Assembly (NCBI RefSeq): GCF_014230085.1
Contig: NZ_JACHVB010000012.1
Span: 124,001 to 188,000, forward strand
Reading direction: 5' to 3'
Origin: Ruficoccus amylovorans
Lineage (GTDB): Bacteria; Verrucomicrobiota; Verrucomicrobiia; Opitutales; Cerasicoccaceae
Length of the DNA: 64,000 nucleotides
Below the pieces are notes generated by a model. The model was not told the origin of the DNA. It did no database searches and saw only the letters and a list, made by a program, of their open reading frames with translations. The stretch's first letter is position 1. Each line of letters starts with the position of its first letter. Below are positions 13,871-59,503 of the stretch, in pieces. The position numbers and the translations under genes were made by a program.

Positions 13871-13985
13871 GTCACAAAGGACACAAAGAAGACACCAAGT
13901 TCACAAAGAGGAGAGGCCGGTTTTCACATCGAGCATGCTTGTAAATACTTCGTGCTCTTCGTGCCTTCTTTGTGTCCTTCGTGAC
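13871..13985. repeat. Family B inverted repeat without gene, between gyrB and gyrA
   Basis: Outer arms 13871-13891 and 13965-13985 are inverted copies matching at 20 of 21 positions. The left side is built of octamers CACAAAGG, CACAAAGA, CACCAAGT and CACAAAGA spaced by 1-3 bases. The 73 bases between the arms hold no gene. It almost fills the gyrB-gyrA gap, so transcripts crossing it could fold into a long hairpin. Confidence 0.85.
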
Positions 13986-40276: not shown

Positions 40277-40376
40277 GGCCTTTCTGGACTTTGAGGGGGC
40301 GTCGCCCCCTCAAAGTCCAGAAAGGCCACGCACCGTAGGGGCATCGCCCCTCAATGCCAGCGGGTGTAACCCGCTA
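40277..40376. repeat. Multi-hairpin module, copy 1, ending at a stop codon
   Basis: The first element is a perfect 24-bp inverted repeat (40277-40300 and 40304-40327) with loop GTC. It is followed by CGTA, a hairpin GGGGC-ATC-GCCCC, TCAATGCC and a third hairpin AGCGGGT-GTA-ACCCGCT. The TAG stop of the leftward CAP gene (40374-40376) lies at the edge of the third hairpin. A second module with the same layout occurs at 50754-50939. Confidence 0.8.
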
Positions 40377-44226: not shown

Positions 44227-45414
44227 ATGAACAAAAGTTTCATCTTCTCCTCTGAATCGGTGGGCGAAGGCCATCCGGACAAAGTTGCCGACTATATCTC
44301 TGACAGCATCCTCGACGCTTGCCTCAAGGACGACCCCAAGAGCCGCGTTGCCTGCGAAACCCTCGTCAAGAGCAACTGCGTGTTCGTCGCCGGAGAAATC
44401 ACCACCAACTCGAAGTTCAACTACGAGCAGGTCGTGCGTGACGCCATCCGCGACATCGGCTACATCGATGCCAAGGACGACGCCGTTTTTCACGCCGACG
44501 AAGTTTTCATTTCCAACTGCCTGACCACCCAGTCCCCCGACATCAAGCAGGGCGTTGACGCCGCTGCGGCCGATGGCAAGGACACTGCCGAGCAGGGCGC
44601 CGGGGACCAGGGGATCATGTTCGGCTACGCCTGCAATCAGACCGAGGAGCTGATGCCCGCCCCGATCATGTTCGCGCACCGTCTGCTGCGCGAGATGGCC
44701 TACCAGCGCAAGGAAGTCGGCGTCGAGTGGCTCCGCCCCGACGTGAAGAGCCAGGTCGCCGTTGAATACGTGGACGGTGAGATCAAGGGCATCCGCAATG
44801 TCGTCATTTCCACGCAGCACATCGAGGACGTGAAGCACAGCACGATCCGCGAGTTTTGCATCGACGAGGTCATCCGCAAGGTGCTCCCGGCTGAGCTGAT
44901 CACGGACGAAACCGAGTTTCTCATCAACCCGACGGGCAAGTTCGTCGTCGGCGGCCCGCAGGGCGACGCCGGCCTGACCGGGCGCAAGATCATCGTCGAT
45001 ACCTACGGCGGTTGGGCTCGCCACGGTGGCGGCGCCTTCTCCGGCAAGGACCCCTCGAAGGTTGACCGCTCCGCCGCGTACTTCTGCCGTTGGGTGGCCA
45101 AGAACATCGTCGCCGCCGGACTGGCCGACGAGTGCGAGCTCCAGGTCGCCTACGCCATCGGTTATCCGTACCCGACGAGCATCCACGTGGACACCTTTGG
45201 CACGGCCAAGGATGGCCTCTCTGACGCGGAAATCTCCGCCGCCGCGCAGCGGGTTTTCTCCTTCAAGCCTGCCGATATCGTTGGCCAGCTCAACCTGCTC
45301 CAGCCGATTTACCGCCAGTCCACCAACTACGGCCACTTCGCCAAGGCGGACCTGCCCTGGGAAAGCACCGCCCGCGCCGCCGAACTCAAGGCCGCTCTCG
45401 GCGCCGCCGTTTAA
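44227..45414 (+). CDS. metK: S-adenosylmethionine synthetase
   Basis: MetK makes S-adenosylmethionine from methionine and ATP. At 395 residues it has the normal length. Signatures are [20 protein letters not shown] (N-terminal ATP/metal site), [16 protein letters not shown] and the P-loop-like [19 protein letters not shown], with the catalytic [10 protein letters not shown] context. With ahcY downstream it forms the methyl cycle pair (SAM formation and S-adenosylhomocysteine removal). A GxxExxY cassette has been inserted between the two genes, starting 9 bp after the metK stop. Confidence 0.97.
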
Positions 45415-45423
45415 GGGGGGAAA

Positions 45424-45872
45424 TTGCCCGCGAAGCTACGCGAAGGAACGCGAAGATGAGCGAAGTGATCTTTAAGCAGGAATGCTACGAGATCATTGGG
45501 GCTTGTATGAGGGTTCATTCCGCGATGGGGAGCGGCTTTTTGGAAAGAGTTTATCAGGAATGTCTGCGGATTGAGTTTGATCAGACCGGGATACCGTTCA
45601 GGGAACAGGCACCTATCGCCATTCACTACCGGGGGCGCCAACTGGAAAGCCAATACTTTGCAGACTTTCTCCTCTATAACTCGATTCTCCTGGAAATTAA
45701 ATCGCTGAAATCACTCTTGGCGGAACATGAAGCTCAACTGCTCAATTACCTTTCCGCCACCCGGCTTCCGCTCGGACTGCTGGTTAATTTCGGCTCCCTC
45801 GGCAAACTAGAATACAAACGCTTAGCACACTCCCGCTGACCTTCGCGCCTCTTCGCGTGTCTTCGCGGGCAA
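45424..45872. mobile_element. Family B inverted-repeat cassette carrying a GxxExxY gene
   Basis: The outer arms at 45424-45455 and 45840-45872 are inverted copies. Both start TTGCCCGCGAAG and continue as octamers CGCGAAGR separated by two bases. The enclosed gene starts at the inner edge of the left arm and its stop codon abuts the right arm, so the cassette is a gene plus its two arms with nothing else. It lies between metK and ahcY, which would otherwise be adjacent. The gene is visibly more AT-rich than its neighbours. No target-site duplication can be called with confidence. Mobility is inferred from structure. Confidence 0.7.
45456..45839 (+). CDS. GxxExxY protein
   Basis: The 127-residue product has the family signature GSGFLERVYQECL (G-x-x-E-x-x-Y) near residue 26, followed by REQAPIAIHYRGRQLESQYFADFLLYNSILLEIKS, which resembles the catalytic core strand pattern of PD-(D/E)XK nucleases (D in FADFLL, E-x-K in LEIKS). 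The family is common in Verrucomicrobia and Bacteroidetes, often in several copies per genome, and its function is unknown. Base composition is lower in GC than metK and ahcY on either side. The ATG lies in the last unit of the left inverted-repeat arm. Confidence 0.9.
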   Translation: MSEVIFKQECYEIIGACMRVHSAMGSGFLERVYQECLRIEFDQTGIPFREQAPIAIHYRGRQLESQYFADFLLYNSILLEIKSLKSLLAEHEAQLLNYLSATRLPLGLLVNFGSLGKLEYKRLAHSR

Positions 45873-45886
45873 CTTAATTAAAGATC

Positions 45887-47326
45887 ATGTCTACAGATAC
45901 ACTGACCACGACCGACTACAAGGTGAAGGACATCTCGCTGGCCGACTTCGGCCGCAAGGAGGTCGAGATCGCCCAGTTTGAAATGCCCGGCCTCATGGCC
46001 ACCCGCGAGAAGTATGCGGCGGAAAAGCCCCTCGATGGCATCCGCATCATGGGCTCGCTGCACATGACGATCCAGACCGCCGTGCTGATCGAGACCCTTC
46101 AGGCTCTCGGCGCCGACGTGCGCTGGTGCTCGTGCAACATCTTCTCCACCCAGGACCACGCCGCCGCCTACGTGGCGAAGAACCTCGGCATCCCGGTCTT
46201 CGCCTGGAAGGGCGAGACGCTGGAGGAGTACTGGTGGTGCACCTATCAGGCGCTGACCTGGCCGGACGGCAAGGGCCCGCAACTGATCGTTGACGACGGC
46301 GGCGACGCCACGCTCCTGATCCACAAGGGCTACGAACTCGAAAACGGCTCCGACTGGGTCGAAGGCGAATCCTCCAGCCACGAGGAGAAGGTCATCAAGG
46401 ACCTGCTCAAGCAGGTCAAGGGTGAGTCCCCGACCCGCTGGCACGAAGTGGTCAAGGAGTGGAAGGGCGTCTCCGAGGAAACCACGACCGGCGTGCACCG
46501 TCTCTACGAGATGCACAAGAAGGGCTCGCTGCTGATCCCCGCGATCAACGTGAACGACTCCGTCACCAAGTCCAAGTTTGACAACCTCTACGGCTGCCGC
46601 GAATCCCTCATCGATGGCATCAAGCGTGCCACTGACGTGATGATCTCCGGCAAGGTCGCGGTCATCTGCGGCTACGGCGACGTGGGCAAGGGCTGCGCCC
46701 AGGCCATGCGCGCCCAGGGTGCGAACGTCGTGGTGACCGAAGTTGACCCGATCTGCGCGCTCCAGGCCGCGATGGAAGGCTTCCGCGTGCTGACGGTCGA
46801 GGACACCCTCGGCTTCGGCGATATCTACGTTACCACCACGGGTAACAAGGACATCATCACCGCCGCCCACATGGCGAAGATGAAGGACCAGGCCATCGTC
46901 TGCAATATTGGCCACTTTGACAACGAGATCCAGGTGGACCAGTTGGCGAAGCTCCCCGGCGTGCAGGTCGAAGAGATCAAGCCCGACCACATGGGCGCGG
47001 TGGACAAGTACACCTTCGAGAACGGCAACAGCATTTACCTGCTGGCCAAGGGCCGTCTGGTCAACCTCGGTTGCGCCACGGGTCACCCCTCGTTTGTGAT
47101 GTCCAACAGCTTCACCAACCAGGTGCTGGCCCAGGTCGAGCTGTGGAAGAAGCGCGAGACCTATAAGCCCGGCGTTTACATCCTGCCCAAGCACCTCGAC
47201 GAGGAAGTCGCCCGCCTGCACCTGCAAAAGATCGGCTGCAAGCTGACCAAGCTCTCGCAGACCCAGGCCGACTACATCGGTGTTCAGGTCGAAGGCCCCT
47301 ACAAGCCCGACCACTACCGCTACTAG
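45887..47326 (+). CDS. ahcY: Adenosylhomocysteinase
   Basis: AhcY hydrolyses S-adenosylhomocysteine to adenosine and homocysteine using bound NAD. The 479-residue length matches the longer bacterial form. Signatures are [34 protein letters not shown], the NAD-binding [29 protein letters not shown] and the C-terminal KPDHYRY. It follows metK functionally; the GxxExxY cassette ends 14 bp before its ATG, so its promoter or transcript now passes through or starts within that cassette. Confidence 0.97.
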
Positions 47327-50619: not shown

Positions 50620-50647
50620 TTAACCACAAAGGCACGAAGACACAAAG
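50620..50647 (+). repeat. Solo arm of family B repeat
   Basis: TTAACC is followed by the octamers CACAAAGG, CACGAAGA and CACAAAGT. No matching inverted arm was seen before 50754, so this is a single arm or a remnant, 73 bases after the obgE stop codon. Confidence 0.7.
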
Positions 50648-50753
50648 TGGTGTTGGCCACGCCGAGAGACTTGCACGTCTCTGGTTTCCCTTCTCCGGTG
50701 GCGTCCACTTCGTTATTTCTACAAGTTTGGGTACGCTTCAGTTTGGATGCCCC

Positions 50754-50939
50754 TCAGGGATTGCGGCTTTCAGTTTCACTGAAAGCCGCAATCCCTGACG
50801 CGATGCGCAGCAACGAAAGTGCAGGCTTCGGCTGCTCGTTCCGTATTTTGTCCACGCGGCCTAAAGCAGCACTGGGGCCAGGAGCCTTTCTGGCTCCGTA
50901 GGGGCAGCGCCCCTCAATGTCCAGTGCGGCCACGCACTA
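50754..50939. repeat. Multi-hairpin module, copy 2, ending at the ilvB stop codon
   Basis: A perfect 21-bp inverted repeat (50754-50774 and 50778-50798, loop TTC) comes first. After a 70-base spacer come hairpins GGAGCC-TTTCT-GGCTCC, GGGGC-AGC-GCCCC, then TCAATGTCC and AGTGCG-GCCA-CGCACT. The last hairpin runs into the stop codon of ilvB (50937-50939), exactly as copy 1 runs into the CAP gene stop. With the solo arm at 50620 this fills the 389-bp gap between obgE and ilvB. Confidence 0.78.
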
Positions 50940-52815: not shown

Positions 52816-52908
52816 TATCGGTTGCAATGAAGAGACGAAAAATCCGCGTTTGTCAAAGCCTAAATTTTCTCCGGCGGGTGGGGGAGTGGCCGGGGGGATG
52901 TTTTTTTA

Positions 52909-53049
52909 TTAACCGCAGAGGCGCAAAGACGCAGAGAGCAAACGTGGGCAAATAGGATCATAAATGGAGAAGAGGTTGCCCGCGAAGTCAGGCGAAGGAG
53001 CGCGAAGTGAAAACAAAAAAACTCTGCGTCTTTGCGCCTCTGCGGTTAA
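52909..53049. repeat. Family B inverted repeat with nested cassette fragment
   Basis: Arms 52909-52936 and 53022-53049 are perfect 28-base inverted copies: TTAAC plus octamers CGCAGAGG, CGCAAAGA and CGCAGAG. Between them, at about 52976-53009, lies GTTGCCCGCGAAG followed by GCGAAGG and CGCGAAGT. That is the left-arm pattern of the GxxExxY cassette, suggesting one repeat nested in another. No gene is inside. It ends 73 bp before the DUF2071 gene stop. Confidence 0.85.
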
Positions 53050-53122
53050 AAAGACAACTTCCCGCTCCGCTGCGGGTTGCGAGCCGCGAGCCCCACGGAA
53101 AAGGGCGGGACTTTTTCCCTGC

Positions 53123-53878: not shown

Positions 53879-54022
53879 TTTCAGGGAAAAAATGAGAGGA
53901 TATCCGCTGTCGTGCAGCCTTTAAGTCTTTGCCGCCGAAGGCCAGCAAAAATTGTTAATTAGTTATCGGTCAGCGCCTACCCGGACCTAATACCATTACT
54001 CACTTTTTTTTGGCTCCATGAA

Positions 54023-54105
54023 TTTTTAAACAGGCAGGACGGAAAGAACAGCAAGCAATCGCAGGAACGCGTCTTCCTGTTCTTCCCGTCCTTCCTGTTT
54101 AAAAA
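54023..54105. repeat. Family C inverted repeat next to the aminotransferase stop
   Basis: The left arm (54023-54055) reads TTTTTAAACAGGCAGGACGG then AAAGAACAGCAAG. The right arm (54073-54105) is its inverse with three mismatches. Each arm contains iterated units of 8-9 bases (ACAGGMAGG, ACGGRAAGA, ACAGSAAG). The flanking A and T runs would allow it to act as a bidirectional terminator. The rest of the 251-bp gap shows no gene. Confidence 0.8.
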
Positions 54106-54129
54106 ATCTAGCGGAGACGTGAAAAAGGC

Positions 54130-58885: not shown

Positions 58886-58913
58886 GCCGCACAGGACGTT
58901 TTTAGAAGAAACT

Positions 58914-59454
58914 CACACGGAGGCACAGAGGCACGGAGTTGGAACGATTTGAGTGGGGGTGTTTTACTTGTTTTTGGTCAATATTAAGAGAATAATACGC
59001 GCTTATGCGTGAGCTTTTAACCCTCAGAGGCTTTCGGCTTATTTTGCTCGTCGTTGTCTTGGGCCTGATCGGTTTATTCCTGCTGAATCGCTATGGGCCA
59101 GCGGCGCGGCAGGGAAAAAATATGGCTTTGGCGCAGGGGTATGTTGACGTGAAAATGGAGGAGATTGCCGGGAGGAAGAATTTGCCCAAGTCAGCATCGT
59201 CGTGTCTCCGGCCGCCAATGGTTCAGTCCTTGTGCATGGCGTTGTTCGGGATGAGGCCAGTGAGAACCGGTTACGTGAGCTTGTTGAGAGTGATCCCCCG
59301 CCGACAGCTGTTCGCTGGCGGATTATGGTTGAAGCTGCGATGGCTAAAGAGCTGGAGGCAGGCGAGGCCACCTCCGCTCAATAGAGCATCTTCGCTTTTT
59401 GCGTATTGTCATTTTCTCAATACCACCCTCCGTGCCTTTGTGCCTCCGTGTGAG
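58914..59454. mobile_element. Family B inverted-repeat cassette with broken small gene
   Basis: Arms 58914-58940 and 59428-59454 are inverted copies matching at 26 of 27 positions, built from CTCA plus octamers CACGGAGG, CACAGAGG and CACGGAG. The 487 bases between them contain a single frameshifted gene for a membrane-anchored protein (59005-59384). The layout parallels the GxxExxY cassette at 45424. It accounts for most of the 618-bp gap between the dus and ABC genes. Confidence 0.65.
59005..59384 (+). pseudogene. Frameshifted gene for a membrane-anchored small protein
   Basis: The first frame gives MRELLTLRGFRLILLVVVLG and a hydrophobic anchor, then GYVDVKMEEIAG. Near 59165-59180 the sensible frame changes: the next frame continues as EEEFAQVSIVVSPAANGSVL, HGVVRDEASENRLREL, PPPTAVRWRIMVE and ends at TAA before 59385. 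One missing base in the GGG run near 59169-59172 would join the two parts into a product of about 126 residues. The C-terminal part resembles a small BON-like or FecR-like beta-alpha domain only weakly. Either a true mutation or a sequencing error explains it. Confidence 0.6.
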
Positions 59455-59503
59455 TAAATCCATATTTGCCAAGGCCGGGGGGCAGGCTTACACACTCATT
59501 GCG

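Follow-up and report, generated by a model that had tools for sequence, protein, structure and literature searches.

A GxxExxY nuclease gene and its inverted heptamer arrays as candidate partners in a probably mobile genetic system

A gene of the GxxExxY family and the inverted arrays of short repeats that enclose it look, from their sequences, like partners in an undescribed and probably mobile genetic system. The cassette lies in a window of 64,000 nucleotides from Ruficoccus amylovorans (the whole stretch of DNA that was analysed), where positions 45421-45875 form a 455-bp (0.45-kb) box of two inverted arms around a single GxxExxY gene. By computation, gene and arms behave as a unit at orthologous intergenic sites, where they occur, are absent or are exchanged together; the arrays are also dispersed as solo arms and gene-free pairs, as a rule in genomes that carry the gene; and the lineage of the protein predicts the bases and the spacing of the repeat unit, also between phyla. 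The cassette is best read, with moderate confidence, as a REPIN/RAYT-like system that is built on a different nuclease and in which the arrays most likely consist of the nuclease's own recognition unit. The features of the cassette and its surroundings are as follows.

44227..45414, plus strand: metK, the upstream neighbour, a host gene (ORF)
45421..45462, plus strand: left arm, type D, CCGCGAAG CTA CGCGAAG GAA CGCGAAG ATG AGCG, with the unit CGCGAAG at period 10
45456..45839, plus strand: GxxExxY gene of 127 aa, encoding a RecB/Cas4-like PD-(D/E)XK nuclease (E30, D70, E80xK82, Q94xxxY98), from ORF, profiles, fold and a dN/dS of 0.116
45834..45875, minus strand: right arm, an inverted copy of the left arm with identical spacing
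45887..47326, plus strand: ahcY, the downstream neighbour, a host gene (ORF)

The arms are 42 nt each, 81% complementary and separated by 371 nt. The pattern TTCGCG-N1..6-TTCGCG occurs 4 times in the 64-kb window, always inside the arms of this cassette, against an expectation of 0.28, and 4 occurrences were reached by no shuffle. An earlier note on this DNA had described a cassette of arms plus gene only, inserted between metK and ahcY and more AT-rich than both, and this description is borne out by the ORF coordinates, by the GC content (about 0.51 for the GxxExxY gene, 0.59-0.67 for metK and 0.59-0.64 for ahcY) and by the size of such boxes (median 459 bp, range 429-606, n=74). The tight fit that it had reported at both arm edges also stands, but the ATG actually lies 7 nt inside the full-length left arm, and the stop codon, which adjoins the right arm, sits inside that arm's inner edge when the arm is taken at full length; the box is therefore tighter than had been stated. 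Elsewhere in the window, positions 40277-40327 hold a perfect inverted repeat of 25 nt, GGCCTTTCTGGACTTTGAGGGGGCG, whose loop is 1 nt long.

The protein belongs to the GxxExxY family by profile, by the G-x-x-E-x-x-Y motif and by its PD-(D/E)XK catalytic residues. It matches TIGR04256 at 140 bits (curated cut-off 35) and PF13366 (PDDEXK_3) at 136.8 bits (cut-off 22), the latter being its sole Pfam match, and G27, E30, Y33, D70, E80, K82 and Q94 are invariant across 40 sequences. The AlphaFold2 model (pLDDT 92.9) finds its best fold match in the Cas4 protein SSO0001 (Foldseek E 2.8e-4; Z 9.4), with lambda exonuclease among the next-best matches. The predicted fold is thus RecB/Cas4-like with the catalytic residues intact, and the earlier suggestion of a PD-(D/E)XK protein proves correct by profile and fold alike. 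The residues D70, E80xK82 and Q94xxxY98 agree with the motif set of the RecB family. The gene is under purifying selection, with a dN/dS of 0.116 at the window site (dS 0.52), close to the 0.088 of ahcY.

Arms of this kind accompany GxxExxY genes well beyond the window. The genome of R. amylovorans contains seven PF13366 genes, and each of the seven carries a terminal inverted repeat near its ORF; the arms match within a copy, whereas their sequences vary from one copy to the next. Within the order, 30 of 32 usable loci score at least 17 for arms (shuffled maximum 15), and across phyla 68 of 75 usable loci, from more than 15 phyla, score at least 16; the cross-phylum sample comprised Planctomycetota, Verrucomicrobiota, Lentisphaerae, Geobacter and other deltaproteobacteria, Chloroflexi, Cyanobacteria, Acidobacteria and others. 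The arm score between unrelated loci is itself raised (95th percentile 21), because most arms have one consensus in common, and a cleaner test is the orientation- and position-specific count of units in the flanks. Strict units in the expected orientation are found in 72/137 left and 79/137 right flanks, compared with 1/131 on either side when the same orientation is sought at a distance of 700 nt. The median distance from the stop codon to the right arm is 3 nt. The earlier note would have given up its proposal had other GxxExxY genes lacked such arms, and they carry them. Of the 289 genomes sampled in the phylum, more than half carry GxxExxY genes, which are also found in many other phyla; there are 7 copies in the genome studied here and up to 12 in others, and both copy number and position vary strongly between species. 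Recent, near-identical cassette copies within one genome, which would be the most direct sign of mobility, were sought in four genomes, where the closest within-genome pair is 84% identical.

Each arm is built from a 7-mer, most often CRCNRAG (also ..AT or ..AA), that occurs 3-4 times, every 8-11 nt, and runs forward upstream of the gene and inverted downstream of it. When the left and right arms of an element are compared, the mismatch rate is 39% in the spacers, 27% at unit position 4 and 1-8% at the other unit positions, and these rates carry a bias of about twofold at most from calling unit positions on the left arm. The mismatches show no G-U bias on the sense strand (78 wobble and 76 A.C pairs). 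From the mismatch pattern and the lack of this bias, selection appears to hold the 7-mer and not the stem as such; selection on an RNA stem was rejected for want of a G-U bias, and the arms point to a DNA site that is read unit by unit rather than an RNA stem. A search for a known RNA family gave no credible match, and a consensus scan found no promoter or terminator in the arms.

The arms also follow the protein. Left and right arms have a common spacing pattern in 34 of 41 cases, compared with a mean of 10.3 and a maximum of 19 in permutations. Arm similarity correlates with protein identity (rho 0.34, with 0/500 permutations as high), climbing from 0.19 below 30% protein identity to 0.80 above 85%, and the correlation persists when only pairs from other phyla are considered (0/1000 permutations). 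On a tree of 115 proteins, the class of unit end changes 6 times, against 14-19 times in shuffles, and unit positions 2 and 5 and the spacing each cluster on the tree as well, with 0/500 shuffles as low. These sequence relationships indicate that gene and arms travel or evolve together, and direct recognition of the arms by the protein would be the simplest reason for their co-variation, part of which reflects the common ancestry of the whole box. The specificity predicted from them concerns cognate versus non-cognate arrays and, at base level, unit positions 2, 5 and 7.

At orthologous sites, the cassettes both turn over and persist. The genes metK and ahcY are adjacent in 30/30 genomes checked, and the cassette is present in two congeners. 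In genome G001 the metK-ahcY junction measures 32 nt, in G005 it holds half an arm, and in G003, G007, G008, G009 and G026 it holds other period-7/8 repeats, mostly hairpins; sites empty of the cassette therefore exist, and the insertion is not fixed everywhere. At two further orthologous junctions, congeners have different hairpins or none. Cassette L002 has a counterpart in G001, where the left flank is 91% identical, the GxxExxY protein 55% identical and the arms different, while the counterpart in G005, from another genus, has a GxxExxY protein that is 79% identical. These identities indicate that the cassette was swapped as a unit, gene and arms together, and cassettes persist at the same site across genera. 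In four genomes from three families, a GxxExxY cassette (L010, L011, L022, L038) lies between gatA and gatB, as the flanking ORFs were read, and its arms and proteins differ between the four genomes. Inspection by eye of 38 inverted repeats together with their flanks revealed no target-site duplication, and exact empty sites are lacking at this divergence. Phage origin and membership in a defence library were rejected on searches of phage records and PADLOC: tblastn gave no match in 50,697 phage records, and PADLOC returned 0 families at E values up to 0.1, although absence from a library is no proof. The best PHROGs match reached only E 0.033, and tblastn of plasmid records gave a match in 7 of 72,556.

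Arrays are more numerous than genes, and those lacking the gene are common; the genome-wide figures for them rest on pattern searches and on 864 kb of genome sequence. In these 864 kb, 45 inverted repeats score at least 20, compared with 0 in a Markov-2 null; a good half of them are array hairpins and the remainder are other elements. Strict arrays number 49 (null 0.33), including 13 pairs and about 18 solo arrays that have no partner. One spacing class alone has 106 genome-wide copies, as solo arms and gene-free pairs, and none in the reversed control. Arm types A, D, E and F are common to gene-bearing and gene-free members, and one type D hairpin that has no gene, 19 kb downstream of the cassette, matches the window arms in 10 of 12 spacer letters (by eye) and keeps their left/right asymmetry. 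The following dispersed arms and pairs were located in the window.

13871..13985, no strand: gene-free pair with arms of type A, as in cassette L002, loop 39
50626..50648, plus strand: solo arm CACAAAGGCACGAAGACACAAAG, no partner within 1.5 kb
52895..53063, no strand: gene-free pair of type C arms (AACCGCAGAGGCGCAAAGACGCAGAG), loop 85, containing a solo type-D-like arm (GTTGCCCGCGAAGTCAGGCGAAGGAGCGCGAAG)
54020..54108, no strand: gene-free pair with arms of type F, as in cassette L006, loop 17
58911..59455, no strand: pair with arms of type E, as in cassettes L001 and L004, loop 489, containing a short gene that seems frameshifted

The site orthologous to the type F pair has no hairpin in G001 and a different one in G002. 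The loop of the type E pair (58939-59427) holds a short membrane-anchored ORF that is apparently frameshifted, and in G001 the same type E arms enclose an unrelated 115-nt loop. The hairpin of type C arms coincides with a synteny breakpoint: its two flanks are widely separated in G001 and fall on separate contigs in G002, and the hairpin may therefore mark a rearrangement. A larger dispersed element (G000:C12:209045-209613, C64:84843-86229 and C25:968-2129), with ends of the form CTAGTGTGC..., contains hairpins, TCAGGGATTGTTGCTTTTAGC among them, and at some locations also a solo arm of type C. A perfect hairpin of 21 nt, TCAGGGATTGCGGCTTTCAGT, occupies window positions 50754-50798 and has many dispersed relatives in the genus.

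With all filters off, hmmsearch found no GxxExxY remnant in those of the longer gene-free loops that were checked, so the gene-free pairs are not simple deletion derivatives, and an origin by internal deletion was rejected. The suggestion that these pairs could be non-autonomous forms of the cassette gains support from the arm subfamilies that they have in common with gene-bearing pairs. Across 289 genomes, arrays and gene co-occur with an odds ratio of 28 (p 1e-25, a value that overstates independence since the sampled genomes are related); among genomes with at least 2 arrays, 103 have a GxxExxY gene and 7 do not. In six genomes (G120, G186, G241, G244, G254 and G272) at least 5 arrays were found and no GxxExxY gene was detected; these genomes may have lost the gene, have gaps in the assembly or carry arrays that belong to the PF05635 family.

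A parallel set of cassettes was observed around PF05635 genes, which encode the four-helix-bundle protein of 23S intervening sequences (IVS). In the same genomes from which the GxxExxY loci were taken, such genes (L008, L237-L265) are intergenic and boxed by inverted tandem arrays of period 7-8; their arms have very diverse spellings, and 20 of 26 loci score at least 16.

Several other explanations have to be weighed against a nuclease that recognizes its own arrays. The arrays could be independent repeats, either mobilised by another agent or serving as host sites, into which GxxExxY, as a homing-type nuclease gene, inserts, with the arms as its landing site rather than its own ends. Gene-free pairs of the same arm types, solo arms and loops clear of gene remnants would all be expected under such a scheme; nevertheless, we consider it unlikely, given that, across phyla, the spelling and spacing of the arms track the lineage of the protein, that array-bearing genomes almost always have the gene, and that gene and arms were swapped together at the L002 site of G001. 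A host function, in which a domesticated nuclease serves DNA repair, defence or chromosome maintenance and the arrays are its sites, appears less probable still. Purifying selection and the persistence of cassettes at orthologous sites across genera and families agree with it, whereas the lack of a PADLOC match, the strong variation of copy number and position between species and the quick turnover of arrays at orthologous sites do not.

The least probable of these alternatives, to which we give very little weight, is an element acting at the RNA level, like the IVS of 23S rRNA, whose transcript would form a stem that is processed, with RNA pairing as what preserves the arms. The Coxiella IVS (PMC4990558) likewise combines terminal inverted repeats and tandem heptamers with a single ORF, and some cassettes sit inside operon junctions (metK-ahcY, gatA-gatB), but the even balance of wobble and A.C mismatches in the arms, the poor pairing of the spacers and the frequency of solo arms are difficult to reconcile with an RNA stem.

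Under the preferred reading of a nuclease partnered with its own arrays, the nuclease would bind the arrays on DNA, unit by unit, and would cut at or beside them, possibly when extrusion of both arms as a hairpin accompanies replication. Through host repair, the pair of arms might then be copied to a new intergenic location, either together with the gene or alone. By analogy with RAYT and REPINs, a slowly evolving nuclease, largely kept by vertical descent, could maintain a population of non-autonomous hairpins. The proposal of a minimal selfish unit is sound as regards its composition of arms and gene; a purely selfish nature and movement by its own nuclease are conjectural. Given the persistence of cassettes across genera, the longer loops devoid of any trace of the gene and the dN/dS of 0.116, a long-lived association of the RAYT/REPIN kind fits better than a short-lived selfish transposon; persistence at orthologous sites and the low dN/dS also fit a host function. 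The many solo arms, the loops clear of gene remnants, the failure to see target-site duplications and the six array-rich genomes with no detected gene count against the preferred reading. A broader claim, which we put forward tentatively and rate somewhat below an even chance, is that the cassettes form a new class of mobile element, spread over multiple phyla, whose sole protein, a PD-(D/E)XK nuclease of RecB/Cas4-like type, would recognise the tandem 7-mer arrays at the ends of the element and spread non-autonomous arrays, both solo and paired, with the four-helix-bundle cassettes as a sister class of the same architecture. GxxExxY, for which no role was found in the literature searched, and repeats of the CRCRRAG type, which fill the intergenic DNA of many of the same genomes with no known cause, would each gain a proposed partner, and if the nuclease moves the arrays, mobility would come from an enzyme family not known to mobilise DNA alone. 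Searches of the literature, which excluded bioRxiv and most subscription journals, found GxxExxY in 2 papers and PF13366 in 1, none of them apparently concerned with arms, and six arm sequences had no text match among 5.39 million papers.

Among known systems, Cas4/RecB-family nucleases (PDB 4ic1, lambda exonuclease) have in common with the GxxExxY protein the PD-(D/E)XK fold with the D, ExK and QxxxY motif, but the GxxExxY protein is shorter (127 aa), has no CRISPR context in the window and is linked to its own flanking arrays. The cassette resembles insertion sequences and MITEs (IS/MITE) in having a gene between terminal inverted repeats and gene-free relatives with the same ends. It differs from them in that its single ORF encodes a PD-(D/E)XK protein and no transposase or integrase, in that solo arms are many, and in that the arms vary widely between copies yet match within a copy. 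The TAACTGA heptamer arrays of Beggiatoaceae, cyanobacteria and Bacteroidetes (PMC4679880) are likewise intergenic tandem 7-mers with a patchy distribution across phyla, but they are direct repeats rather than inverted pairs, and no protein partner has been identified for them.

The likeness to REPIN/RAYT systems (PMC8049555, PMC3116915), the nearest working analogy, extends to inverted doublets with short, diverse and variable spacers, accompanied by solo singlets and dispersed between genes at high copy number, to many repeats per few enzyme genes, to an enzyme gene long kept vertically and to an enzyme type that matches the repeat type. However, RAYT is a REP-associated tyrosine transposase, while profile and fold make the enzyme here a PD-(D/E)XK nuclease, and because the enzyme differs the window cassette is not a member of REPIN/RAYT. 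As regards duplication of the repeats by the enzyme, a mark of REPIN/RAYT, the evidence here consists of the co-occurrence and co-variation of arrays and gene. The arms here are arrays of 3-4 short units, where REP is one imperfect palindrome each, and the GxxExxY gene, unlike the single-copy and vertically inherited RAYT, lies inside its own arm pair and is multi-copy (7 copies here, up to 12 per genome), though some copies are kept at orthologous sites.

An architectural parallel is the 23S IVS. In Coxiella, it has 28-bp terminal inverted repeats and tandem GACAGAT heptamers before the S23p ORF (PMC4990558), and the window cassette matches this plan in its terminal inverted repeats, in tandem repeats of 7-11 nt by the ORF, placed directly before the start codon, and in one small ORF within about 430 nt. 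The IVS, in contrast, sits in 23S rRNA, from which it is removed by RNase III, and its protein is a four-helix bundle unrelated to GxxExxY; the window cassette lies between metK and ahcY and not in a 23S rRNA gene, and the sole Pfam match of its ORF is PF13366, not PF05635. The cassette architecture thus has one known relative, whose intergenic form seems undescribed, and the PF05635 cassettes may show the origin of 23S intervening sequences.
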